A DNA stretch of 64,000 bases from Simplicispira psychrophila DSM 11588 (GTDB lineage: Bacteria; Pseudomonadota; Gammaproteobacteria; Burkholderiales; Burkholderiaceae_C). The notes below the pieces were generated by a model. The model saw nothing but the letters and a program-made list of their open reading frames with translations. It did not search any database and was not told where the DNA came from. This document shows, piece after piece, positions 32,741-63,927 of this stretch (position 1 is its first letter; the number at the start of each line of letters is the position of its first letter). The position numbers and the translations under genes were made by a program. Where the stretch lies: the NCBI RefSeq assembly GCF_000688255.1, contig NZ_JHYS01000018.1, positions 1-64,000 on the forward strand, in the 5' to 3' direction.

Positions 32741-34072
32741 TTAGGAGATGTAGTTGAACATGGACATTTTTTGCACCATAGCGTACGACTGTAGCGCCGC
32801 CTGGTAACCCAGTTGGGTGTGCTGAAAGTCCGAGATGCCCTGCACCATGTCCAAGTCTTCGGCGCGTGAGCGGTCGGATTCGAGCTGAATGCTGCGCGTG
32901 TCTTGGTCGCCCGTAATGCGGTCAGCGCGGTTAAGCAGTTCGCCGGCATAGCTGCGGATAGCCTGCAGGCGCTCCATGCCCCGATCCAAATTGGCCAAGC
33001 CCTGCCCGACGGCCTGGGCAGCGGCGTTGCTGTCAGCGGCGTTGGCGATGCCGCCAATGGCTTGGTCGATGGTGCCAAATAGGCCAGTGCTGGGTTTGAG
33101 GGTGATGGTGTCGAGGGTGGCCACACCGGGGGTGACGGTGCCATCGGAGGCCGTGATGGGGCTGGCCTTGATGCTGAACTTCAGGCCATCAATGAAGGCG
33201 GTGGGGCTGTTTTCTTTGGAGATTTCAAATTCCAGCGGTTTGTCGTTGGCGAAATCCGGGATGGTTCCAACCTGCGCTGCTGCCCCGGTCGTTTTGTTAC
33301 GCACTTCGTAGGTGGCGGTGCTGGTGTTGGGGGTGGCGCCGGCCGTGACGCTAGTGAAAACGATTTCAAAGTCGTCGCCCTGGCCATTGTTTGTGGCGGG
33401 GATTTGGGTGGGATCGACCACCGTGATTTCGCTGGTGCCGAATTTACGGCCCGTCAGGGACGTCGGCGGCGTTGCCGTGTTACTCAGTGCAGCGTTGTAG
33501 ATGCCATCGCGCTTGGTTTGGAACATGAAGGCCGAATCGCCATCCAGCATGGTCGGAATGCCCACGGCAGAGCCGCTGGTTTGGCCAGCCAACCCGGCAA
33601 AGCTGTCGGGTGTATTGCCCAAGAACGGCGCCAGCGCGCTGCCCAAGGCCCCCAGCAGCGGCAGGCCATTGGTGTCTTTGCGGTTGGCCACGCTGACCAG
33701 CTGGTCGCGCAGGCTTTCAATTTGGCCGGCAATGATGCGCCGGTCTTGCGGGGCCAAGGTGCCCGCGCCGGCGCTGACCATCAGCTCGCGTATTCCCTGT
33801 ACCAAGTTGACCGCGTCGCCCATGGACGATTCGGCCTGTGCTACGGCATTGCGCTGCACGTCCAGGGCACGTTGTTCGGTTTGGATGCGGGCCATGCGCG
33901 TGATGGCGCGTTCGGCCTGGGCGGCGGCCACCGGGTCGTCGCTGGCGCGCAGTACGCGCTTGCCAGAGGTGAGTTTCTCGTTCTGATCGGCCAGCGAGTT
34001 TTGACGCGCGCCGATGTTGCGGATCGAGTTGTCGTACATGCTGGCTGTGGCCACGCGGTTGATTGAGCTCAT
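32741..34072 (-). CDS. flgL: Flagellar hook-filament junction protein FlgL
   Basis: A 443-residue flagellin-fold junction protein (HAP3), connecting hook and filament above FlgK. The conserved terminal coiled-coil regions are present: N-terminal MYDNSIRNIGARQNSLADQ and KRVLRASDDPVAAAQAER (about 12-55), and C-terminal RAEDLDMVQGISDFQHTQLGYQAAL. The middle (~150-330) is an extended Thr/Gly/Asn-rich domain, making it about 125 residues longer than E. coli FlgL (317). Start ATG 34072 has GGAG upstream. It follows flgK by 38 bases and precedes the HDOD gene. Exported unfolded by the flagellar type III system; FlgN is its chaperone. Confidence 0.96.
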   Translation of the reverse strand: MSSINRVATASMYDNSIRNIGARQNSLADQNEKLTSGKRVLRASDDPVAAAQAERAITRMARIQTEQRALDVQRNAVAQAESSMGDAVNLVQGIRELMVSAGAGTLAPQDRRIIAGQIESLRDQLVSVANRKDTNGLPLLGALGSALAPFLGNTPDSFAGLAGQTSGSAVGIPTMLDGDSAFMFQTKRDGIYNAALSNTATPPTSLTGRKFGTSEITVVDPTQIPATNNGQGDDFEIVFTSVTAGATPNTSTATYEVRNKTTGAAAQVGTIPDFANDKPLEFEISKENSPTAFIDGLKFSIKASPITASDGTVTPGVATLDTITLKPSTGLFGTIDQAIGGIANAADSNAAAQAVGQGLANLDRGMERLQAIRSYAGELLNRADRITGDQDTRSIQLESDRSRAEDLDMVQGISDFQHTQLGYQAALQSYAMVQKMSMFNYIS

Positions 34073-53238: not shown

Positions 53239-54174
53239 TTACGGTGCCGCCTTGGCGGGGAGATTGTCTGTCTTTTCATCGGGCAATTGTGCCGTGGGGA
53301 TGACAGGAAGACTCTTTCCCAGCAATCTTTCTTCGGCTTCGCGCGTCAGAATGGTGATCGTGATACGCCGATTGGCGGGCGCGCGCGGGTTTTCGGGCTC
53401 CAGCAAATCGCTGGCGGCCAAACCGACGACGCGGCTGAGCTTGGCATCGGGCATTCCGGCCGCCACCAATTCACGGCGCGAGGCATTGGCCCGGTCAGCC
53501 GACAACTCCCAATTGCTGTAACCGCGGTCGCCCTTGCCGTAGGCTGCGGCATCGGTGTGGCCGGCCAGGCTGATGCGATTTTCGACCTCGCCCAAGGCCG
53601 CGCCAATGTCGCGCAATATGTCGCGCATATAGGGCTTGACGAGGGCACTGCCGCTGTCAAACATGGGCCGATTTTGGTCGTCCACGATCTGGATCTGCAA
53701 GCCATCGGGCGTCATGTCAATGCGAATCTGCGAGCGGTATTCATTGAGCTTGGCGTTTTGGGTGATGATCGCGTCAATTTTGGACTGCAGGGCCTTGATG
53801 CGTGCGGCATCCTGGCGCGCCACGGCGGCCCGGGCTTGGTCCGGCGACATTTTTTGCCGATTTTTCTCGGCCTCTGATTTGCGCGTTTGGCCATGGGCCT
53901 TGGTCAGGTCGGTGCCGCCGCCGGAGATGATGCTGCTGCTATTGCCAGAGCCTTCGCCGCCGGCCATCGCTACCTTCAGGGGGGTATTGAAATAATCTGC
54001 TAGCCCCTGCAACTCGCCCTGTGCGGTGGAGCCCAGCAACCACATCAGCAGAAAGAACGCCATCATGGCGGTCATGAAATCGGCGTAAGCAATCTTCCAG
54101 GCACCCCCATGCGCAGCGTGTGCCGTCTTCTTGACGCGCTTGATGATGATGGGTTGGAGTTTTTTTTCGGCCAT
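53239..54174 (-). CDS. motB: Flagellar stator protein MotB
   Basis: A 311-residue stator subunit (E. coli 308). The single N-terminal membrane segment contains the proton-binding aspartate Asp32 (YADFMTAMMAFFLLMWLLG). The periplasmic OmpA-like domain (about 150-280) includes ISLAGHTDAAAYG, YSNWELSADRANASRREL and NPRAPANRRITITI, which bind peptidoglycan. Its type (MotB, not PomB) suggests proton drive. It follows motA by 42 bases. Confidence 0.97.
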   Translation of the reverse strand: MAEKKLQPIIIKRVKKTAHAAHGGAWKIAYADFMTAMMAFFLLMWLLGSTAQGELQGLADYFNTPLKVAMAGGEGSGNSSSIISGGGTDLTKAHGQTRKSEAEKNRQKMSPDQARAAVARQDAARIKALQSKIDAIITQNAKLNEYRSQIRIDMTPDGLQIQIVDDQNRPMFDSGSALVKPYMRDILRDIGAALGEVENRISLAGHTDAAAYGKGDRGYSNWELSADRANASRRELVAAGMPDAKLSRVVGLAASDLLEPENPRAPANRRITITILTREAEERLLGKSLPVIPTAQLPDEKTDNLPAKAAP

Positions 54175-54216: not shown

Positions 54217-55077
54217 TTATTTTTTGCCGCGCACATGATCTTCCAGCTCTAGGAAGGTGGGACGATCGGTAGAGAACAGCACCTTGCGGCCAAATTCGAT
54301 GGCAGTGGCCGGGTTGTAGCCCTGCATACTGGCCAGCAAAGTAGTTTTGATGCACTGCAACTCTTTGGCGGCGTCGGCTGCTTTTTGCTCGACCAAACCG
54401 GCCAAAGGCTCGACAAAAGCGTAGGCCAACAAAATCCCCAAAAACGTGCCGACCAGCGCCGAACCCACCATGGCGCCCAGCACCGAAGGTGGCTGGCCAA
54501 CCGAGCCCATGGTGTTTACCACCCCGAGCACCGCCGCCACAATACCAAACGCTGGCAAGCCACCGGCCACGCGGTTTAACGCAGCGACGGGGGCGTGGGC
54601 TTCCTCGTGGTGGGTGTCGATTTCGCTCTCCATCAGCGCTTCAATTTCGTGCGAGTTCAGGTTGCCCGAGACCATCATGCGCAGATAGTCGGTCATGAAC
54701 TCGACCACATGGTGGTCGGTGCCGACGTTCGGGTATTTTTTGAAAATTTCGGATTCGTGCGGCTCTTCCACGTCTTGCTCAATGGCCATCAAGCCTTCTT
54801 TGCGCGCCTTCTGCAAAATGTCATAAAGCAGGGCCATCAGTTCCATATAGCGCGCTTTGGTGTATTTGGAGCTTTTGATGGCGTTTTTAACGCTGGCCAG
54901 AGTGGCTTTGAGGACTTTGGGCTGGTTGTTGACGATGAAGGCGCCCACCGCAGCGCCGCCAATGGTGGCCATTTCAAAGGGCAGGGCGGTCAGCACCACG
55001 CCGATTTTGCCGCCGTGCAATATGAACACGCCAAAGACGCAAATCAGGCTGAGGACGTAACCAAGTATAAGAAACAT
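54217..55077 (-). CDS. motA: Flagellar stator protein MotA
   Basis: A 286-residue stator subunit (E. coli 295) with four membrane segments (about 1-20, 30-52, 165-190, 200-222) and a cytoplasmic loop whose charged residues drive FliG. It shows GGAAVGAFIVNNQP near 40 and LPAFGIVAAVLGVVNTMGSVGQPP near 170-195. It is the first gene of the minus-strand run motA-motB-cheY-cheZ-flhB-flhA-flhF-flhG-fliA, divergent from the GT41 gene. A sigma-28-like -10 lies upstream but its spacing is poor. Confidence 0.97.
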   Translation of the reverse strand: MFLILGYVLSLICVFGVFILHGGKIGVVLTALPFEMATIGGAAVGAFIVNNQPKVLKATLASVKNAIKSSKYTKARYMELMALLYDILQKARKEGLMAIEQDVEEPHESEIFKKYPNVGTDHHVVEFMTDYLRMMVSGNLNSHEIEALMESEIDTHHEEAHAPVAALNRVAGGLPAFGIVAAVLGVVNTMGSVGQPPSVLGAMVGSALVGTFLGILLAYAFVEPLAGLVEQKAADAAKELQCIKTTLLASMQGYNPATAIEFGRKVLFSTDRPTFLELEDHVRGKK

Positions 55078-55261: not shown

Positions 55262-57616
55262 ATGACTGAAACTGCCGCTGCGCCCTTGGCCGACGCTGAC
55301 ACCAATGCCGGCGCCGGCATCGAGTCGCCCCCTGTTTCCGCTGCCATAGCCCAGTTGCTGCAGCAAACGATGGAATTGGCGCTGCAATGCCACCGTGACA
55401 AGCAGTGGGCAGAAGCTGCTGAGCTTTATTACGCCGTGTTGCGCCAGCAGCCAGAACACCCTGATGCCAACCACAATTTGGGGGCGATAGCGGTGGAGCA
55501 GGGCGACCCTTTGGCCGCCATTCCTTTATTTCAGATCGCATTGCAAGCCGATCCCAAGTCCAGCCCCTACTGGGTTAGCTTGATTGATGCGCTGATGCAG
55601 GCGAAGGAATACACGCTGGCCACCGATATTTTGGAAGATGCCCGCCGCGCCGGTTTGAATCTTGGCAATGTGGGTGAACTGGTCGAGCGCCTGGTGGAAG
55701 TCGCCATGCGGCGTGCGCGTAACACGCCAGTAATCAGGGGAATTCAGCCACCGCAGGCGCAAAGCAGCAAGCTGGCGCGTTTGTATGAAGCCAATGACTT
55801 TGACGCGGTCATCAAGCTCAGTAAAAAGATAGCGCACCAGTACCCGCAAAGTTTGGTGGGATGGAAAGGCTTGGGTGCGGGCTATATGCGCCAGGGCCTA
55901 CGCGAAAAAGCTATCGACGCACTGCAGCACGCCTTAGCGTTGGATTCGACCGACTTTGATGCTCTGAGCAACTATGGTTTGGCCCTGTCGGCGCGCGGGG
56001 AGCTGGTGCAAGCAGAAATTTTGCTCCGCCAAGCGACACGGTATCGTCCGCGTGTAAATATTGGCTGGTTCAATTTGGGCCTTGTGCTGCGTTCGCAGGG
56101 CCGTTTTAACGACATTGAGCGCGTTTATCGCAGTGCCCTTGATGCTGTGGGCGACAGAATTGGCGTGCTGATCAATCTCAGCATCTGGCTGACTGACTTG
56201 AACCGCTTGACCGAGGCCGAAGAAACTGCCCGCCAGGCTATTGCTGAAAAGGCCAATTCAGCAGTGGCCCATGTCCAATTGGCCATGGTGCTTAAAGATC
56301 AGGGGCGATTAGTGGAGTCGGTAGAGGCATTGCGCCATGCCATCGTGCTTGACCCGAACGAGTTTGTCAGTTTGAGTAATTTGTTGTTTGTTGCCAATTG
56401 CATTCCGGATATGGACCCGTACGAGCGTTTTGCTTTATACCAAGAATTCGATGAACGTTTTGGTAAGGCCTTTCGTCCGTACTGGCGCCCGCACACCAAC
56501 CTACGCTCTACCGCACGGCGTTTGCGTGTAGGCTATGTGGCACCCGTTTTTCGGTATCATTCTTCGCAAAAATTTTTGGAGCCCTTGTTCGCCCACCACA
56601 ACCATGAGCGCGTTGAGTTGTTTGCTTATGCGAATAACTACGAATTGGATGATGAAGTTACCGATCGTTATCGCACTTATTTTGATCACTGGTGCGAGAC
56701 GGGCGATCTCCATGACCAGCAGCTGGTTGATCGTATCCGGGCTGATGGTATTGATGTGCTGGTGGACATTGCTGGCCAGACCAAGGGGGCTCGTTTAGCA
56801 GTTTTTGCATCCAAACCAGCGCCGGTGTCTTTGCACTGGTTGGACTCGGGTTACACCACTGGCCTGTCGGCGATTGACTATTACCTGACTGACGCTGCTA
56901 CCGTCCCGCCCGGTTCTGAAGATTTGTTTACAGAAATACCTTGGCGTTTGCCACACACGCAGTTGTCCTACCGACCCGATGCCGCCAGCATGGGTGCGGT
57001 CGGCCCCTTGCCTGCACTGGAGCGTGGTTACATCACTTTTGGCTCCTTGACCCGTGCAGTACGGCTTAATGCGGGACTCATCGCTACTTGGGCGCAATTG
57101 CTGCAGCGCGTGCCCCATTCCAAGCTGGTGCTCAATAGCATGAACTTTCATACAGCTGATATCTGCGACGTGTGGATACAGCGCTTTGCTGATTTGGGCA
57201 TTCCTGCCGATCGCTTGCAAATGGGTTATCAAACCCCGCCTTGGGATGTGTTACGTGGCATCGATATCATGCTCGACTGCTTTCCGCAAAATTCGGGTGC
57301 AACCTTGTTCGAATCGCTCTATATGGGCTTGCCCTTTGTATCTTTGGCCGGCGCACCCAGTATGGGTACGTTGGGTGCATCGGTGTTGACCGCGCTGGGG
57401 CGCCCGGAGTGGGTTGCCCATTCGAAAGAGGAATACCTCGATAAGCTGGTGGCATTGGCCAGTGACGTGCCGGCGCTGGCCGCGCTGCGTTCAGGCTTGC
57501 GCGCCGAGATGCAGGCCAGTGCGCTCATGGACGAGCCCGGTTTTGCCCGTGATGTGGAAGATGCCTATTTCGCCATGTTCCAGCGCTGGATTGATACCAC
57601 GCCCGAGGAGGTTTGA
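55262..57616 (+). CDS. TPR-containing GT41 (SPINDLY/O-GlcNAc transferase-like) glycosyltransferase
   Basis: A 784-residue protein: tetratricopeptide repeats over about residues 35-400, then a SPINDLY/OGT-type catalytic domain (about 420-770) with [57 protein letters not shown] and MGLPFVSL. The family transfers sugars to Ser/Thr of proteins. Two donor-site features of human OGT differ: the lysine (K842) is Arg598, and the NGHTT motif reads NSGAT at 677-681, so the donor may not be UDP-GlcNAc. I chose the ATG at 55262. It is divergent from motA and directly precedes a CDP-sugar pathway. Flagellin is the likely acceptor by context; that is inference. Confidence 0.85.
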
Positions 57617-57618
57617 GC

Positions 57619-58389
57619 GTGAAAGCCGTCATCCTTGCCGGTGGCCTGGGCACACGGATTTCAGAAGAATCGCACCTGCGTCCCAAGCCGATGATTGAGA
57701 TTGGTGGGCGCCCCCTCCTGTGGCACATCATGAAGATATACGCCGCGCATGGCGTGAACGACTTCGTCATTTGCCTGGGCTACAAGGGCTACGTTATCAA
57801 AGAGTATTTTGCCAACTACTTTTTGCACTCGTCTGATGTCACCTTCGACATGGCAGAAAACCGCATGGAAGTGCACCGTCGCCATGCCGAGCCGTGGCGT
57901 GTCACACTAGTCGATACCGGCGACAACACTATGACTGGTGGCCGTCTGCGCCGCGTGCGCGAATATCTGACACCCGGCGAGGCGTTTGCCTTTACTTATG
58001 GCGACGGCGTGGCCGACATCGACCTGACGGCGGAATTCGCCTTCCACCGCGCCCACGGCCAATGGGCTACCGTGGCCGCCGTACAGCCGCCCGGGCGCTA
58101 CGGCGCCTTGCAAATGGAGGGCAGCCGGGTCAGCGCCTTCACCGAAAAGCCCCGGGGTGATGGCGGCCTGATCAACGGCGGCTTTTTTGTACTGCAACCC
58201 GAGGTACTCGATTTGATTGCCAGCGACCAGACCAGCTGGGAGTTGGAACCGATGGCCGCGCTGGCCGCACAAAACCAGCTACAGGCGTTTGAGCACAGCG
58301 GCTTTTGGCAGCCGATGGACACTTTGCGCGAGAAAACTCTGCTGGAAGAGTTGTGGCAATCAGGCCAAGCGCCATGGAAAGTGTGGTGA
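57619..58389 (+). CDS. rfbF: Glucose-1-phosphate cytidylyltransferase
   Basis: A 256-residue nucleotidyltransferase making CDP-glucose from CTP and glucose 1-phosphate (Salmonella RfbF is 257). The N-terminal signature is [14 protein letters not shown]...RPKPM (about 5-25); GDGVADIDL holds the metal-binding Asp, and [14 protein letters not shown] and [11 protein letters not shown] complete the family pattern. I chose the GTG at 57619, with AGGAGG seven bases upstream; a TTG two codons earlier has no usable spacing. It starts two bases after the GT41 stop, so expression is coupled. Confidence 0.95.
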
Positions 58390-58391
58390 AC

Positions 58392-59471
58392 ATGACTAGC
58401 GGGATCCTGCCAGACGCCCCTTTTTGGCGCGGCAAGCGCGTGCTGCTGACGGGTCACACCGGCTTTAAGGGGGCTTGGTTGGCGCTGTGGCTGCAGCGCA
58501 TGGGCGCGCAGGTCACTGGTTTGGCGTTGGCGCCAGCCACCCAGCCGGCGCTGTTCGATTTGGCGTGCGTGGCACAGGGTATGGATAGCCAATTGGCGGA
58601 CATCCGTGATGCCGCCGCTGTAGCCACAGTCGTGCGTGCGGCCCAGCCGGAGGTGGTGTTGCACTTGGCGGCGCAAGCGCTGGTACGCCCCGGCTACGCC
58701 GCGCCGCTAGAGACTTTTGCCACCAACGTCATGGGTACCGCTCATCTGCTGGACGCCTTGCGCGGTCAGCCCAGTGTGCGCGTGGCAGTGGTGGTGACGA
58801 CCGACAAGGTGTACCGCAACCGCGAATGGGTGTATCCGTACCGCGAGGATGACCCGCTCGGCGGGCACGACCCCTACAGTGCCAGCAAAGCGGCGGCTGA
58901 ACTGGTGGCGGCCAGCTACCGCGACAGTTTTTTGGCCGTACAAGGCGTGGCCGTGGCCACGGCCCGCGCCGGCAACGTGATTGGCGGCGGCGACTGGGCC
59001 CAAGACCGTCTATTGCCCGATGCCGTGCGCGCGTGGCAGCAGGGCGCCACCTTGCACATCCGCCATCCCCAGGCCACGCGGCCCTGGCAACATGTGCTGG
59101 AGCCTTTGGCGGCCTATTTGCGGCTGGCTGAAGTGCTGTGGCAACACCCGCAGCGCGCCGGTGCCTACAATTTCGGCCCCCTGCCACACGAAGCCGCTAC
59201 CGTCAAAAATGTGGTCGAAATGGCTTCTATGGCTTACAAATCAAGCGCTGTAAGCTATCAAAATAATAGTGTAAATCCGCACGAAGCCCACTGGCTGGCG
59301 CTAGAAACCGCCCACGCCCGCAGCACGCTGTGCGTACAACCGCGCTGGCCGTTGGCGACTGCCGTGGCGCGCACCCTGGCGTGGTACCGCGCCCAGCAGC
59401 AAGGGGCTGATACGCTGGCGCTGTGCTATGCCGACATCGACGCTTACATCGATCCCTTGGCACAGCCATGA
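58392..59471 (+). CDS. rfbG: CDP-glucose 4,6-dehydratase
   Basis: A 359-residue NAD-dependent short-chain dehydratase converting CDP-glucose to CDP-4-dehydro-6-deoxyglucose (Salmonella RfbG ~359). NAD motif GHTGFKG near 22-28, catalytic TTDKVY and Tyr-x3-Lys in DPYSASKAAAE, substrate region AGNVIGGGDWAQDRLLPD. I chose the ATG at 58392, two bases after the rfbF stop. Residues about 277-293 (SMAYKSSAVSYQNNS) are coded by a copy of the interspersed palindromic repeat, read in frame without changing the total length. They replace a variable surface segment just before the conserved PHEAHWL, so the enzyme may still be active. Confidence 0.92.
   Translation: MTSGILPDAPFWRGKRVLLTGHTGFKGAWLALWLQRMGAQVTGLALAPATQPALFDLACVAQGMDSQLADIRDAAAVATVVRAAQPEVVLHLAAQALVRPGYAAPLETFATNVMGTAHLLDALRGQPSVRVAVVVTTDKVYRNREWVYPYREDDPLGGHDPYSASKAAAELVAASYRDSFLAVQGVAVATARAGNVIGGGDWAQDRLLPDAVRAWQQGATLHIRHPQATRPWQHVLEPLAAYLRLAEVLWQHPQRAGAYNFGPLPHEAATVKNVVEMASMAYKSSAVSYQNNSVNPHEAHWLALETAHARSTLCVQPRWPLATAVARTLAWYRAQQQGADTLALCYADIDAYIDPLAQP
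59221..59272. repeat. Interspersed palindromic repeat inside the rfbG coding frame
   Basis: GCTTACA (59232-59238) pairs perfectly with TGTAAGC (59249-59255); ATCAAGCGC lies in the loop and CTATCAAAATAATAG follows. These words are the hallmark of the intergenic copies, especially 63960-63978. The reading frame stays open through it. Confidence 0.8.
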
Positions 59472-60028
59472 GCCGCTTTGCCGTCACTCCGACAGCGCTG
59501 GCTGGTTTGCAGTGCATCCAACGCCAGCCGCTGCAAGACGCGCGCGGATTTTTGGCGCGGTTGTTTTGTGCGCAAGAACTGGCCGCCGCCGGCTGGCCCG
59601 GCCCGGTAGCGCAAATCAACCACACCCACACCGCCGAGTGCGGCACCGTGCGTGGCCTGCACTACCAACGCCCGCCCGCGCCCGAGGCCAAATTGGTCAG
59701 CTGCCTGCGTGGTGCAGTCTGGGATGTGGCGGTGGACTTGCGCGCCGGCTCGCCCACTTTCTTGCAGTGGCACGCGCAAGAACTGTCAGCGCAGAACCAC
59801 TGCGCGCTGCTGATTCCGCCCGGCTTTGCGCACGGCTTTCAGGTGCTAGAAGCCGGTACTGAGTTGCTGTATCTGCACTCTGCCCCCTACACCCCCGCTT
59901 GCGAAGGCGCACTGCACGCGCAAGACCCGCGCCTAGCCATTGCTTGGCCGCTGCCGGTACACGGCCTGTCGGCGCGTGACGCGGCCCACGCATGGCTTGA
60001 CACGTCCTTTGAAGGAGTCCGTTTGTGA
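59468..60028 (+). CDS. dTDP-4-dehydrorhamnose 3,5-epimerase-like (RfbC/cupin) enzyme
   Basis: A 186-residue cupin-fold sugar epimerase of the RfbC family (usual 180-185). Motifs: DARGFLARLF, INHTHTAECGTVRGLHYQ (catalytic His in GLHYQ), LRGAVWDVAVDLR and IPPGFAHGFQVL. In a CDP-glucose pathway it should epimerise C3 and/or C5 of the 4-dehydro-6-deoxy sugar, not dTDP-rhamnose, since no rmlA/B/D are present. Its ATG overlaps the rfbG stop (ATGA) and its stop overlaps the next start (GTGA), so all are translationally coupled. Confidence 0.9.
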   Translation: MSRFAVTPTALAGLQCIQRQPLQDARGFLARLFCAQELAAAGWPGPVAQINHTHTAECGTVRGLHYQRPPAPEAKLVSCLRGAVWDVAVDLRAGSPTFLQWHAQELSAQNHCALLIPPGFAHGFQVLEAGTELLYLHSAPYTPACEGALHAQDPRLAIAWPLPVHGLSARDAAHAWLDTSFEGVRL

Positions 60029-61284
60029 GCTCTTGTTCTAATTTCGTCCCCGCGCCGATGCACTGCCGCCACTGCGCCGCGCCGGTCACGCGGGTGCTGG
60101 CCGATTTGGGCACTGCGCCGCCGTCCAACGCCTACCTGCGCCTCGCCGCCCTGCAGGCGCCCGAGCGCTGGTACCCGCTGCGCGTGCTGGTGTGCGAGAA
60201 CTGCTGGCTGGTGCAGACCGAAGACTTTGCCCAGGCGCACGAGCTGTTCGATGCCGAATATGCCTATTTCAGCTCCTACTCCAGCAGCTGGCTGGCCCAT
60301 GCACAGGCCTACGTAGCCAGCATGGTCGAGCGCTTTGGCTTGGGCGCGCACAGCCAAGTGGTCGAAGTGGCGGCCAACGACGGCTACCTGCTGCAATACG
60401 TCGACCAGCGCGGCATCCCCTGCTTGGGCATCGAGCCCACTGCCAGCACCGCCGCCGCCGCCCGCGCCAAAGGCATCACCGTGGTCGAGCGCTTTTTTGG
60501 CGTAGCGCTGGCGCAAGAACTGCGCGCCCAAGGTCACAGCGCCGACCTGATGGCCGCCAACAACGTGCTGGCCCATGTGCCCGACATCAACGACTTTGTC
60601 GCCGGCTTTGCCACTTTATTGAAGTCCACGGGCGTGGCGACGTTCGAGTTTCCGCACCTGCTGCGCTTGGTGCAGCAGTGCCAGTTCGACACGCTGTACC
60701 ACGAGCACTTTTCTTATTTATCGCTCAGCGTAGTGCTGCGCATCTTTGCGGCCAACGGCCTGGCGGTATTTGACGTGCAAGAGCTGCCCACCCACGGTGG
60801 CAGCCTGCGTGTGCTGGCGCAGCGCAGCGATACGAGTGCGCAGCCTATTTCTCCTGCCGTCGCCGCCCTGCTGGCACGCGAATCCGCTGCCGGCATGATG
60901 ACAGCGGATTTTTATGGTGATTTTCAGCTCCAGGCCTTACGTATCAAGCGCGAGCTGCTCTTATTCTTGATAGACGCACAAGCCCGTGGCCGCAAGGTAG
61001 CCGCCTACGGTGCTGCCGCCAAAGGCAACACCCTGCTCAACTTCGCCGGTGTGCGCGGCGATTTGTTGCCCTACGTGGTGGATAAAAATCCGGCCAAACA
61101 AGGCCAATTTTTGCCCGGTAGCCGCATCCCCATCGTCGATGAAGCCCACCTGCGCGCGCACCGCCCTGATGTGGTGCTGATCCTGCCGTGGAATTTGCGC
61201 GATGAGGTGATGGCGCAGCTGGCCTATATCCGCGAATGGGGCGGCCAATTTGCAGTCGCGGTGCCGAGCTGGCAACTGTGCTGA
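60025..61284 (+). CDS. Sugar C-methyltransferase (TylCIII/NovU type)
   Basis: A 419-residue SAM-dependent methyltransferase with the full three-part layout of NDP-hexose C-methyltransferases: an N-terminal zinc-binding domain (CRHC near 14-17 and CENC near 57-60), the SAM domain with VVEVAANDGYLLQY and MAANNVLAHVPDINDF, and a C-terminal domain with AAYGAAAKGNTLLNF and VVDKNPAKQGQFLPGSRIPI. TylCIII and NovU methylate C3 or C5 of 4-keto-6-deoxy sugars. GTG start at 60025 with GAAGGAG upstream. Residues about 295-315 may be coded by a decayed repeat copy. Together with rfbF/rfbG this predicts a CDP-linked branched 6-deoxyhexose. Confidence 0.92.
   Translation: MSSCSNFVPAPMHCRHCAAPVTRVLADLGTAPPSNAYLRLAALQAPERWYPLRVLVCENCWLVQTEDFAQAHELFDAEYAYFSSYSSSWLAHAQAYVASMVERFGLGAHSQVVEVAANDGYLLQYVDQRGIPCLGIEPTASTAAAARAKGITVVERFFGVALAQELRAQGHSADLMAANNVLAHVPDINDFVAGFATLLKSTGVATFEFPHLLRLVQQCQFDTLYHEHFSYLSLSVVLRIFAANGLAVFDVQELPTHGGSLRVLAQRSDTSAQPISPAVAALLARESAAGMMTADFYGDFQLQALRIKRELLLFLIDAQARGRKVAAYGAAAKGNTLLNFAGVRGDLLPYVVDKNPAKQGQFLPGSRIPIVDEAHLRAHRPDVVLILPWNLRDEVMAQLAYIREWGGQFAVAVPSWQLC
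60921..60973. repeat. Possible decayed repeat copy in the C-methyltransferase gene
   Basis: CCTTACGTATCAAGCGC then GAGCTGCTCTTATTCTTGATAG recalls the repeat order CTTACAAATCAAGCGC, AGCTGCT and TTTTGATAG. The coded residues (QALRIKRELLLFLIDA) also fit the normal family helix, so similarity by chance is possible. Confidence 0.35.
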
Positions 61285-61333: not shown

Positions 61334-62401
61334 ATGAGCAACGATCCCCGCGACTTGGATGGAAAACGTTTGCAGCAGGCGCTGCGTTTGTTAGGTCGAG
61401 ATACGGTGCTGCGTGCGCGTTTAGTTGAATTTTTGCGCGACTGCGAGCCAGCCTTGGTGTATGACGGAGCCGTGCGAGACGACGTGGTGGGGCCGATCAT
61501 CGATGCCCTGCATGAAGACAGCGACGTTTATGCTAAAGAACTGGCCGACGGCACGCGCATGGAGTTTTATTACCGCACCAAAATCGCGCGCGATTTGCTG
61601 CTGTCGGCCAGCGATCGTCCAACCCACGTTTGGGAGCCACAAACCACCAAGTTGCTGCTGACACTGGCACGCCACCTGCAGGGTGACGTTATCGTCGGCG
61701 GTGCCTATTTTGGTGATCAGGCCGTATTGGTGGCCAAGGCTATTGCCCCGGCTGGCTTGAAAGTGCATTGTTTTGAACCCAATCCCGATCAAGCGGCCAT
61801 GTTGCAGAGCAATGTGGCGCTCAACCAGTTGACCAATGTGGTGGTCAATAAAACCGGCCTGTGGAATCGTTCTGGTGAGCGGATGCGTCTGGACGGCTTT
61901 GACTCGTTTGCCAACGCAGTGGCGGCATCCGATGGAGAGGGTTTCAGCACCGAGGCCATGGACGACTACGCTGCCCGACAAGGCATTCGCGTTGGCCTGA
62001 TCCAGTTGGACATCGAAGGTGCCGAGCTGGCCGCTTTGCAAGGTGCGCAGCAACTGCTGGCCAAAGACCGCCCCGCAGTGGTGTTCGAGGTGCACCGCCA
62101 TTATGTGGACTGGAGCCAAGGCTTGCGCGCAACACCCATCTGCCAGCTCTTTTTGTCTCTGGGCTATGAAATTTTTGCCGTGCGCGACATCAACTCGCAC
62201 CGTGAAATGCCCGGCCAGCCGGTGGAGCTGGTGCCGTTGGATGCCGTTTATTTGGATGGCCCGCCGCACGGTTTCAATATGCTGGCGCTGCCGGATGCCA
62301 GCGTGTTGGATACGCCCGAATTTCGCCGAGTAGAAGGTGTCAGCCCCAAATTGCTGCCGCACAAGGCGGCGCACCTGCACCATCCGATAGGTGGTTTTTG
62401 A
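61334..62401 (+). CDS. FkbM family methyltransferase
   Basis: A 355-residue SAM-dependent methyltransferase of the FkbM family. The N-terminal ~105 residues have no recognised domain; then the Rossmann core shows GDVIVGGAYFGDQAVL (SAM loop), VHCFEPNPDQAAML, VNKTGLWNRSG, and IQLDIEGAELAALQGAQQLL with VVFEVH. FkbM enzymes O-methylate sugars or polyketides, and in glycan loci usually sugars. Start ATG 61334 follows AGGAAATTTC. It lies 49 bases after the C-methyltransferase gene, the largest gap in this otherwise tightly packed run. Confidence 0.9.
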   Translation: MSNDPRDLDGKRLQQALRLLGRDTVLRARLVEFLRDCEPALVYDGAVRDDVVGPIIDALHEDSDVYAKELADGTRMEFYYRTKIARDLLLSASDRPTHVWEPQTTKLLLTLARHLQGDVIVGGAYFGDQAVLVAKAIAPAGLKVHCFEPNPDQAAMLQSNVALNQLTNVVVNKTGLWNRSGERMRLDGFDSFANAVAASDGEGFSTEAMDDYAARQGIRVGLIQLDIEGAELAALQGAQQLLAKDRPAVVFEVHRHYVDWSQGLRATPICQLFLSLGYEIFAVRDINSHREMPGQPVELVPLDAVYLDGPPHGFNMLALPDASVLDTPEFRRVEGVSPKLLPHKAAHLHHPIGGF

Positions 62402-62404
62402 GCC

Positions 62405-63280
62405 ATGCCGGTTGACGACAGCCTGTTGACGGGGCGCTTGTTCACCGTCATCGGTGCAGCGGGTTTTGTCGGCCAGCGTGTAGTCGCCCGGCTGCGTGCC
62501 GCCGGTGCCTGCGTCTATGCCCCAGTGCGCGATGACCCCGCACTGTGGCAGCAGCCTTTGGGACAAGTGATCTACGCCGCTGGATTGACGGCAGACTATT
62601 TGGCACGGCCCTTTGACACCGTGCAAGCCCACGTCAGCCTGTTGGCTCAGGTGCTACAGCGCGGCCAGTGGGAGGCTCTGGTTTATCTTTCCTCCACCCG
62701 CCTTTACGACAGCTTGGGTGCTATCGACTGCACAGAGTCGCTACCGCTACAGCTGAACCCAGCGCAGCCGCGCCATTTGTACGACTTGTCCAAGGCTTTG
62801 GGCGAGTCGCTGTGCCACAGCGTGGGGCAGGGGCGGGCACGCATTGCACGGCTGGCCTGTGTCTATGAAGGCATAGAAGATGCCGATGGCTTCTTGCCCG
62901 CGCTGCTGCGCCAAGCATTGGCCGCGCGCGTGCAGGCCTGCGCGGTAGGGCCGGCTGCTCGGGGGGTGTTGTCCATCGATTCCTCGCCCGCATTCGAGCG
63001 CGACTATGTGCAGATGGCTGATGTGGTTGAGGCTTTGCTCCACATCCTGTTGCAAGGCCAGCAGGTGGTTTACAACGTCGCCAGCGGTTGCAATGTGCCC
63101 AATGCTGCTTTGTTTGACTACTTGGCGCAGCATGGCCAGTGCGACGTGCAGGCCATGCAGACGGGTACACCCAACCCTGCACCACAGATCAGCATTGCGC
63201 GTATGCGTGCCGAGTTTGATTGGCAGCCGCGCAGCGTGTTTGAGCTGTTGGATAGCCTTTACAAGGAGCTGGGATGTTGA
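62405..63280 (+). CDS. NAD-dependent epimerase/dehydratase family protein
   Basis: A 291-residue extended short-chain dehydrogenase. The Rossmann glycine motif is GAAGFVG near 17-23, STRLYD follows strand five, and the catalytic Tyr-x3-Lys is YDLSK near 127-131. It resembles GDP/UDP/dTDP-sugar epimerases and reductases but is shorter than GalE-type enzymes. By context it may reduce or epimerise the 4-keto group of the C-methylated CDP sugar, the step otherwise missing in the pathway; this is inference. It starts 3 bases after the FkbM stop and overlaps the next gene by 7 bases. Confidence 0.85.
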   Translation: MPVDDSLLTGRLFTVIGAAGFVGQRVVARLRAAGACVYAPVRDDPALWQQPLGQVIYAAGLTADYLARPFDTVQAHVSLLAQVLQRGQWEALVYLSSTRLYDSLGAIDCTESLPLQLNPAQPRHLYDLSKALGESLCHSVGQGRARIARLACVYEGIEDADGFLPALLRQALAARVQACAVGPAARGVLSIDSSPAFERDYVQMADVVEALLHILLQGQQVVYNVASGCNVPNAALFDYLAQHGQCDVQAMQTGTPNPAPQISIARMRAEFDWQPRSVFELLDSLYKELGC

Positions 63281-63927
63281 AGCTGGTGCATTTTTCACGT
63301 GCTGACTTGCTGCAATACGTGGTGCGGCAATTGGATCAGTTCTTTCCCGATGGATTGCAGCCCGACGCTGCTGACTTATTGCGCCCACACATGGATGTGG
63401 CACTAGATCGGTTGGGGTACTGCATTGATGCTGTACGCCCATGGAAGCCGGGCGAGTTTGACCACCTGCATTCGTCGCAATACACCATTTTTCTGTATTA
63501 CCTAGCGCACACCGTGTGGACGGTTACTGGGCAGCGTAGCTTGTGCGCCAAATTGTTTGGGCTGAACAAAGCCCTCAATGGCATTGATTTGTTCTACGAA
63601 ATTGAACTGCCGCCGGTGTTCTTTATCGGCCACTCGGTGGGCATCGTCTTTGCCAAGGCTACCTACGGTAATTATTTAGTGGTGTACCAAAACTCCACCG
63701 TGGGAAAAAACCATGGCGTGGCGCCGGTGTTGGGTGATGGTGTGGTGATGTACCCCAACACCGCCATCATTGGGCGCTGCGATGTGGGCGCTGGCACGGT
63801 GCTGGCGCAAGGGGTTAGTCTGATCAATACCAGCACGCCGGGCCACTGCACGGTGTATCCCGGCCCGGCGGGCGCGGTGGTGTGCAAGCCAACTGGGCGT
63901 AATGTATTGGCTGATATTTTTCGATGA
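63274..63927 (+). CDS. Serine acetyltransferase-like hexapeptide-repeat protein
   Basis: A 217-residue protein with a helical N-terminal half (1-115) and a left-handed beta-helix C-terminal half (VFFIGHSVGIVFAKATYGNYLVVYQNSTVGKNHG onward), like serine O-acetyltransferase (CysE). The CysE catalytic region usually reads DIHPAAxIGxGxxxDH; here IGHSVGIVF lacks that aspartate, so the substrate is probably not serine. In a glycan locus O- or N-acetylation of a sugar is more likely, but there is no direct proof. Start ATG 63274 follows AAGGAG and overlaps the epimerase stop. It is the last complete gene of the window. Confidence 0.78.
   Translation: MLKLVHFSRADLLQYVVRQLDQFFPDGLQPDAADLLRPHMDVALDRLGYCIDAVRPWKPGEFDHLHSSQYTIFLYYLAHTVWTVTGQRSLCAKLFGLNKALNGIDLFYEIELPPVFFIGHSVGIVFAKATYGNYLVVYQNSTVGKNHGVAPVLGDGVVMYPNTAIIGRCDVGAGTVLAQGVSLINTSTPGHCTVYPGPAGAVVCKPTGRNVLADIFR

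Follow-up and report, generated by a model that had tools for sequence, protein, structure and literature searches.

The window, that is, the whole 64,000-nucleotide stretch analysed, carries next to motA a run of eight genes on one strand, which begins with a glycosyltransferase of family GT41:

53239..54174, minus strand: motB (NF006548, 401 bits)
54217..55077, minus strand: motA, the divergent upstream border of the island (TIGR03818, 385 bits)
55262..57616, plus strand: GT41 glycosyltransferase, with a TPR region at about residues 37-370 and a catalytic region at about 411-784
57619..58389, plus strand: rfbF, glucose-1-phosphate cytidylyltransferase (TIGR02623, 465 against 300 bits; chosen start GTG 57619)
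58392..59471, plus strand: rfbG, CDP-glucose 4,6-dehydratase (TIGR02622, 469 against 278 bits; chosen start ATG 58392)
59468..60028, plus strand: RmlC-like sugar 3,5-epimerase (PF00908, 1e-56; TIGR01221, 141.9 bits, under the cut-off of 155.75; the chosen start, ATG 59468, overlaps the rfbG stop)
60025..61284, plus strand: sugar C-methyltransferase with Methyltransf_13 and Methyltransf_14 (PF08484, 1.1e-62; PF08421, 9.1e-21)
61334..62401, plus strand: FkbM-family methyltransferase (TIGR01444, 76.5 against 37.7 bits)
62405..63280, plus strand: NAD-dependent epimerase/dehydratase family protein, candidate 4-ketoreductase (PF01370, 4.3e-15)
63274..63927, plus strand: CysE/EpsC-like acetyltransferase (NF041874, 41 against 150 bits, under curated cut-offs)

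The GT41 gene is the first in an operon-like run, with rfbF, rfbG, rmlC and the C-methyltransferase, FkbM, epimerase and acetyltransferase genes following in the same direction at short distances or with overlaps. Its stop codon occupies 57614-57616 and, with GTG 57619 taken as the start, rfbF begins two bases later. The first-pass annotation had placed the gene two bases ahead of a CDP-glucose pathway, and this holds with that start: a CDP-6-deoxyhexose pathway is represented by a cytidylyltransferase and a 4,6-dehydratase, both scoring over their curated cut-offs, and neither rfbF nor rfbG reaches its cut-off anywhere else in the genome. The epimerase-family protein (62405-63280), the sole candidate 4-ketoreductase in the island, reached no NCBIfam cut-off, and the CysE-like protein gave no Pfam match at 1e-3.

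Just beyond the window, at contig positions 64077-64811 on the minus strand, lies a flagellin C-terminus (PF00700, 5.6e-28) belonging to a gene that runs off the end of the 64,813-base contig. With motA on one side and the 3' end of the flagellin gene on the other, the island is therefore bounded by both; by its genes it is a flagellin glycosylation island, a glycosyltransferase and sugar-pathway genes adjoining a flagellin gene. A flagellin gene within the window itself was considered and rejected, the genome's only PF00669 match (33653-34051, minus strand) lying in flgL. The family searches of the eight island genes found no second glycosyltransferase, which leaves the GT41 protein as the best candidate for transfer to flagellin.

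The 784-residue product of the GT41 open reading frame joins N-terminal TPR families (residues ~37-366) to a catalytic domain that matches PF13844 (Glyco_transf_41) with an E-value of 4.4e-37 and 128 bits against a gathering score of 25, the architecture expected of GT41. Its best solved relatives by HMMER are Arabidopsis SPINDLY (7y4i/8dtf, 4.5e-77), then 5djs (4.6e-65) and human OGT (1.5e-60), in agreement with the earlier description of the catalytic domain as SPINDLY/OGT-like. The nearest relative found is L001 from Acidovorax sp. Root219; between the two genes dN is 0.34 and dS 2.95, the latter near saturation, indicating purifying selection.

The positions that bear on donor binding are the following:

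57053..57064, plus strand: codons 598-601 (R-A-V-R), R598 in the OGT Q839/SPY N662 column and R601 in the OGT K842/SPY K665 column
57134..57136, plus strand: codon 625 (N), aligned with SPY K689
57290..57304, plus strand: codons 677-681 (NSGAT), aligned with OGT NGHTT

In the HMMER alignments and in the multiple alignment alike, R601 pairs with SPY K665 (OGT K842) and R598 with SPY N662 (OGT Q839). Arg598, earlier put forward as the counterpart of K842, is thus ruled out in that role: the assignment was off by three residues, the lysine column being that of Arg601, and Arg598 stands at the Gln839/Asn662 position. The pairing of NGHTT with NSGAT at 677-681 was borne out by the alignment. As had been claimed along with it, the His and one Thr of this motif are both replaced, but loss of the His is usual in bacterial GT41 proteins.

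SPINDLY is a protein O-fucosyltransferase with GDP-fucose as donor, in which K665 holds the pyrophosphate and is essential for activity (PMC9715652, PMC10027727). Its donor signature is described as K665, K689, A731 and Y744, and K689 corresponds to OGT L866, a position that helps to tell guanosine from uridine (PMC10027727). The window protein resembles SPINDLY in joining TPR repeats to a GT41 domain and in keeping SPY H495 and S496 as H433 and S434; it differs in having R601, N625, V663 and Q676 in place of the four signature residues, A680 in place of T748, and a base-loop stretch of 26 residues against 30. Human OGT likewise combines TPR and GT41 parts and shares the second Thr of NGHTT (681), whereas its donor signature of K842, Gln839 and NGHTT gives way in the window protein to R601, R598 and NSGAT, with Gly for the His and Ala for one Thr, and L866 to Asn625.

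Residues were counted across 104 catalytic domains, including SPY, 5djs and the window protein. Position 601 is Lys in 74, Arg in 28, Met in one and His in one, and the 28-domain set used below is defined by Arg601 itself. Arg598 is present in all 28 Arg601 domains and also in 16 of the 76 others, so that it is nothing special. In the column of the NGHTT His, Gly stands in 28/28 Arg601 domains and in 50/76 others, with His in only 8/76; since Gly is the commonest residue there, loss of the His was dismissed as evidence for a new donor. Residue 680 is Thr in 25/28 and 70/76 domains respectively, and Ala in 1/28 (the window protein) and 4/76. Among the 28, Gln506 belongs to the window protein only, the other 27 having His; residue 429 is Asp in 23, where the window protein has Val429, which it shares, together with Gln676, with L001. 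At residue 625, 23 of the 28 have Asp and five have Asn, and Trp661 is found in 26. The stretch containing the base-binding loop (query 650-675) measures 26 residues in 28/28 Arg601 domains, against 27 to 30, mostly 29, in the 76 others, and its motif, TPPWD in the window protein, is mostly SPPWD in the clade.

On a 100-domain tree computed with the trait columns removed, the 28 Arg601 rows form exactly one side of one branch (SH-aLRT 99%), and a single change suffices for Arg601 on a 104-row tree built without column 601. Three weak GT41 rows (L116 7108-9306, L118 1256-3544 and L061 4663-7596) were left out before tree building, and the fragment G039:C63:2-760 was left out of the clade sample. 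A core clade with 93% support takes in 26 of the 28 domains and mostly shows LTR..R, an SPPWD loop and NSGTT; the remaining two, L043 and the second L034 module, make up a deep branch, in which the motifs are SGRTERLN and SGGTM. The scan of genome contigs yielded one locus, L001. Among 369 genomes of the window's class, none besides the window itself gave a protein in the core-clade score range, and two besides the window's genome passed 1e-115 (386-391 bits). GT41 copies per genome are lower bounds, as at most three candidates per genome were scored in one relatives search and five in another, from truncated lists in both cases, the second with residues known for the best 20 hits.

The linkage to CDP-sugar genes was examined in 18 core-clade proteins from 15 genomes, chosen by GT41 similarity alone. 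A gene for rfbF lies in the stretch of 13 of them (the window, L001, L034, L035, L037, L039, L040 and L104-L109), and mot or flagellin genes accompany it in 11 of these 13, the two without being L105 and L106, the latter a 6-kb contig. As for the remaining five, contig ends truncate the stretches of L041, L042 and L110, and chemoreceptor genes adjoin L036 and L038. All 15 genomes in which the core clade was found contain rfbF. Within a sample of 299 genomes of the family, rfbF is present in 7/7 genomes with the core clade as against 77/292 others (Fisher p 1.1e-4, an optimistic value because the genomes are related); the 292 are genomes with no core-clade protein among the scored matches and include G082, which has the deep branch and no rfbF over the cut-off. 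Counting the deep-branch protein L043 of that genome, rfbF occurs in 7/8 family genomes with an Arg601 GT41. The order sample gave rfbF in 7/7 further core-clade genomes, plus Root219 (L001), and in 5/12 genomes whose best hits were of the Lys type.

The lone Arg-type GT41 genes of L036 (8185-10419, plus strand) and L038 (8687-11101, minus strand) stand beside genes for methyl-accepting chemotaxis proteins. No match to the window's pathway genes was found in either stretch, two of the other open reading frames in each having been scanned, and both genomes carry rfbF elsewhere; these two proteins perhaps serve another acceptor.

The linkage was also approached from the side of rfbF. The family sample has 84 rfbF loci over the cut-off, all of which were examined; 22 of them have a GT41 gene in the stretch, and these divide unevenly: 17 of 26 loci with flagellin or motA labels (the window added by hand) as against 5 of 58 without, so that GT41 is associated with CDP loci of the flagellar type. 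This recount supports the association and limits it with similar weight, for no GT41 was found in the stretch of the other 9/26 flagellar loci (L131, L133, L137, L138, L162, L168, L174, L188 and L191), at least some of which must rely on a different transferase. In a further set of 54 rfbF loci from the family, GT41 was present in the stretches of L176 and L187. The GT41 probe was the window's catalytic domain alone for L124-L143, where distant GT41s may therefore be missed, and seven representatives for L146-L205. Loci L124-L130, L132 and L146-L205 were chosen because of rfbF, which colours the counts that use them; neighbourhood counts leave out SPY, 5djs and the three loci at contig ends (L041, L042 and L110).

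GT41 proteins of other clades keep similar company. Eight loci of a Lys-type clade with Glu625 and the motif SCNNLGKL (L053, L063, L065, L068 and L124-L127, the last four selected for a nearby rfbF) all include rfbF, rfbG and flagellin within the stretch, the GT41 gene lying on the strand opposite rfbF; seven of the eight also have rmlC and the C-methyltransferase, and three (L065, L068 and L124) the FkbM, epimerase and CysE genes as well. A third clade, SLNNS with Met625, is found near rfbF in L128, L129 and L132, OGT-like GT41s with a hydrophobic residue 625 in L130, L136, L139, L176, L187 and L200, and a Lys-type GT41 with Asn625 in L202. At L129, two GT41 genes of different clades flank rfbF. 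Genome G556 has a Lys-type GT41 in its rfbF stretch and carries its Arg-type gene on a separate contig. Since clades that keep the lysine adjoin rfbF and rfbG, the change from Lys to Arg is not needed near a CDP pathway, and Arg601 alone was rejected as an indicator that CDP is used. GT41 genes are thus broadly linked to CDP-sugar genes, and Arg601 is the trait of one clade and not diagnostic; the Lys-type GT41s in CDP islands, the flagellar loci with no GT41 and L043 together mean that the substitution is no proof of CDP use.

Among 99 rows with a known neighbourhood, some from loci chosen for rfbF, Asp, Glu or Asn stands at position 625 in 31/41 with rfbF against 3/58 without, the other 10 of the 41 having Met, Leu or other residues. 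The tree needs no more than three origins of the trait, and an independent-pairs test of the association was not significant; an acidic residue 625 was accordingly rejected as a proven reader of cytosine.

From the observed gene order, protein families, residue conservation and recurrent linkage we infer, donor, acceptor and sugar structure included, that the GT41 protein is a cytoplasmic flagellin O-glycosyltransferase that moves a CDP-6-deoxy-3-C-methylhexose, a reading to which we give a probability of roughly 0.6. Flagellin is the likely acceptor, because the island spans motA to the 3' end of the flagellin gene and because GT41 accompanies flagellar rfbF loci in the proportions given above. 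In the proposed route RfbF would form CDP-glucose and RfbG would convert it to CDP-4-keto-6-deoxyglucose, which the RmlC-like enzyme would epimerise; the C-methyltransferase would add a branch methyl, probably at C-3, with the position and stereochemistry predicted only, and the epimerase-family protein would reduce C-4. The FkbM enzyme may O-methylate the sugar and the CysE-like enzyme may O-acetylate it. The TPR region probably binds flagellin, and the GT41 domain would transfer the CDP-activated 6-deoxyhexose. At the donor site, Arg601 and Arg598 are predicted to hold the diphosphate where other GT41s usually have Lys and Gln/Asn; kept throughout the clade under purifying selection, Arg601 most likely retains the pyrophosphate role of K665. 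Asp or Asn625 and the shortened loop, both aligned with the base-binding parts of SPINDLY, may read cytosine.

The idea that a CDP-linked deoxy sugar is put onto flagellin had already been advanced in the first-pass annotation. It is strengthened by rfbF in 13/18 core stretches, accompanied in 11 cases by mot or flagellin genes, and weakened by Lys-type GT41s at rfbF and rfbG, by the flagellar loci that have no GT41, and by L043. A wider and tentative reading, whose odds we place somewhat below even, is that the GT41s of flagellar islands have been re-tuned in nucleotide specificity: several clades would independently have become CDP-sugar transferases, an acidic residue or Asn at 625 reading cytosine in some and one clade having exchanged Lys for Arg.

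Alternatively, the GT41 protein might place a UDP-derived sugar (GlcNAc or another) on flagellin, the CDP-sugar being added on top of it or elsewhere by a glycosyltransferase encoded outside the island. UDP-sugars are the classical GT41 donors, and the solved GT41 relative 5djs, like the window protein, has no donor lysine. 5djs, titled Tetratricopeptide TPR_2 repeat protein in the PDB and presumably from Thermobaculum, differs in carrying Met at the lysine site and a longer loop, and sits outside the Arg clade. GT41 genes in enterobacterial flagellin islands were taken as a sign of GlcNAc derivatives, with the caveat of a wider specificity (PMC4875605), and the flagellar rfbF loci in which no GT41 was found fit a separate transferase for the CDP-sugar. 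Against this stand the lack of a second glycosyltransferase among the eight island genes, the pairing of GT41 with rfbF in 13 core-clade loci and in eight loci of a second GT41 clade, and a base-binding loop and residue 625 unlike those of SPINDLY and the other GT41s examined; we consider the explanation unlikely.

Still less probable, in our judgement, is that the feature recognised by the Arg-type clade is the sugar (a 6-deoxyhexose with a C-methyl group or some other modification) and not cytosine, with CDP or dTDP accepted. This reading draws on L043 (SGRTER branch, Arg601, Asp625), whose stretch has rmlC and the C-methyltransferase together with a DegT aminotransferase, a methyltransferase and an RMNT_CmcI O-methyltransferase; as it has no rfbF, and its genome G082 none over the cut-off, its sugar may be dTDP-linked. 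L043 is, however, one locus on a deep branch, set against rfbF in 15/15 core-clade genomes, and the stretches of L037 and L040 show no C-methyltransferase over the threshold, so that the feature they have in common with the rest is CDP rather than C-methylation. That the window protein is a decaying or inactive copy is very improbable: Arg601, Ala680, Gln506 and Val429 do fall at strongly conserved sites, and in SPINDLY T748A (the Ala680 column) lowers activity and K665A and K665M abolish it (PMC9715652, PMC10027727), but the 784-residue frame is intact within a closely spaced gene run, dN is far below a near-saturated dS, Arg601 is kept across a clade of intact proteins, and Val429 and Gln676 are common to L001.

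Returning to the CDP-sugar transferase that we favour, the closest published parallels are other flagellin systems. Flagellin islands with GT41 genes were reported in Enterobacteriaceae in 2016, where a wider donor specificity was deemed possible, and the account describes an island type 23, in four strains, with genes for CDP-4-keto-6-deoxyglucose (PMC4875605). Like the island in the window, the GT41-containing islands combine GT41, sugar-pathway and methyltransferase genes beside a flagellin gene, there fliC; unlike it, they are described as lying between fliC and fliA (PMC4875605). Caulobacter FlmG is a cytoplasmic enzyme that binds flagellin through its TPR part and glycosylates flagellins with pseudaminic acid, a sugar likely CMP-activated according to the same source (PMC7591256). 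It is comparable in its TPR plus GT-B architecture, by description and not by sequence, but is 596 residues long against 784, and the term GT41 is absent from PMC7591256.

The first-pass annotation had also held the donor use to be new for GT41. As SPINDLY uses GDP-fucose (PMC9715652, PMC10027727), the family is already known to accept donors besides UDP-GlcNAc; a CDP donor would still be new as far as the literature search goes, no report of a GT41 with a CDP-sugar donor having been found among the open-licence PMC matches listed. If the proposal is right, this would on that search be the first GT41 with a CDP-linked donor, and a lysine that SPINDLY cannot do without (both K665A and K665M abolish activity) would be replaceable by arginine throughout a clade. 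The residue at SPY K689 would then offer a sequence clue to the donors of uncharacterised bacterial GT41s, and a branched 3-C-methyl-6-deoxyhexose would be suggested as a flagellin sugar in bacteria related to Acidovorax.

Several members of the Arg601 clade are unusually large. Giant proteins with four, four and three GT41 modules in one frame are encoded by L035 (6032-13726, plus strand), L037 (6736-14559, plus strand) and L039 (7831-13896, minus strand), measuring 2565, 2608 and 2022 residues from stop to stop; every counted module is of the Arg type and rfbF follows directly. Because L035 lies on a 5.8-Mb contig, an assembly error is unlikely there. In L034 (5615-10486, plus strand), a single frame fuses a core-clade module with a module of the deep SGRTER branch, both of the Arg type.
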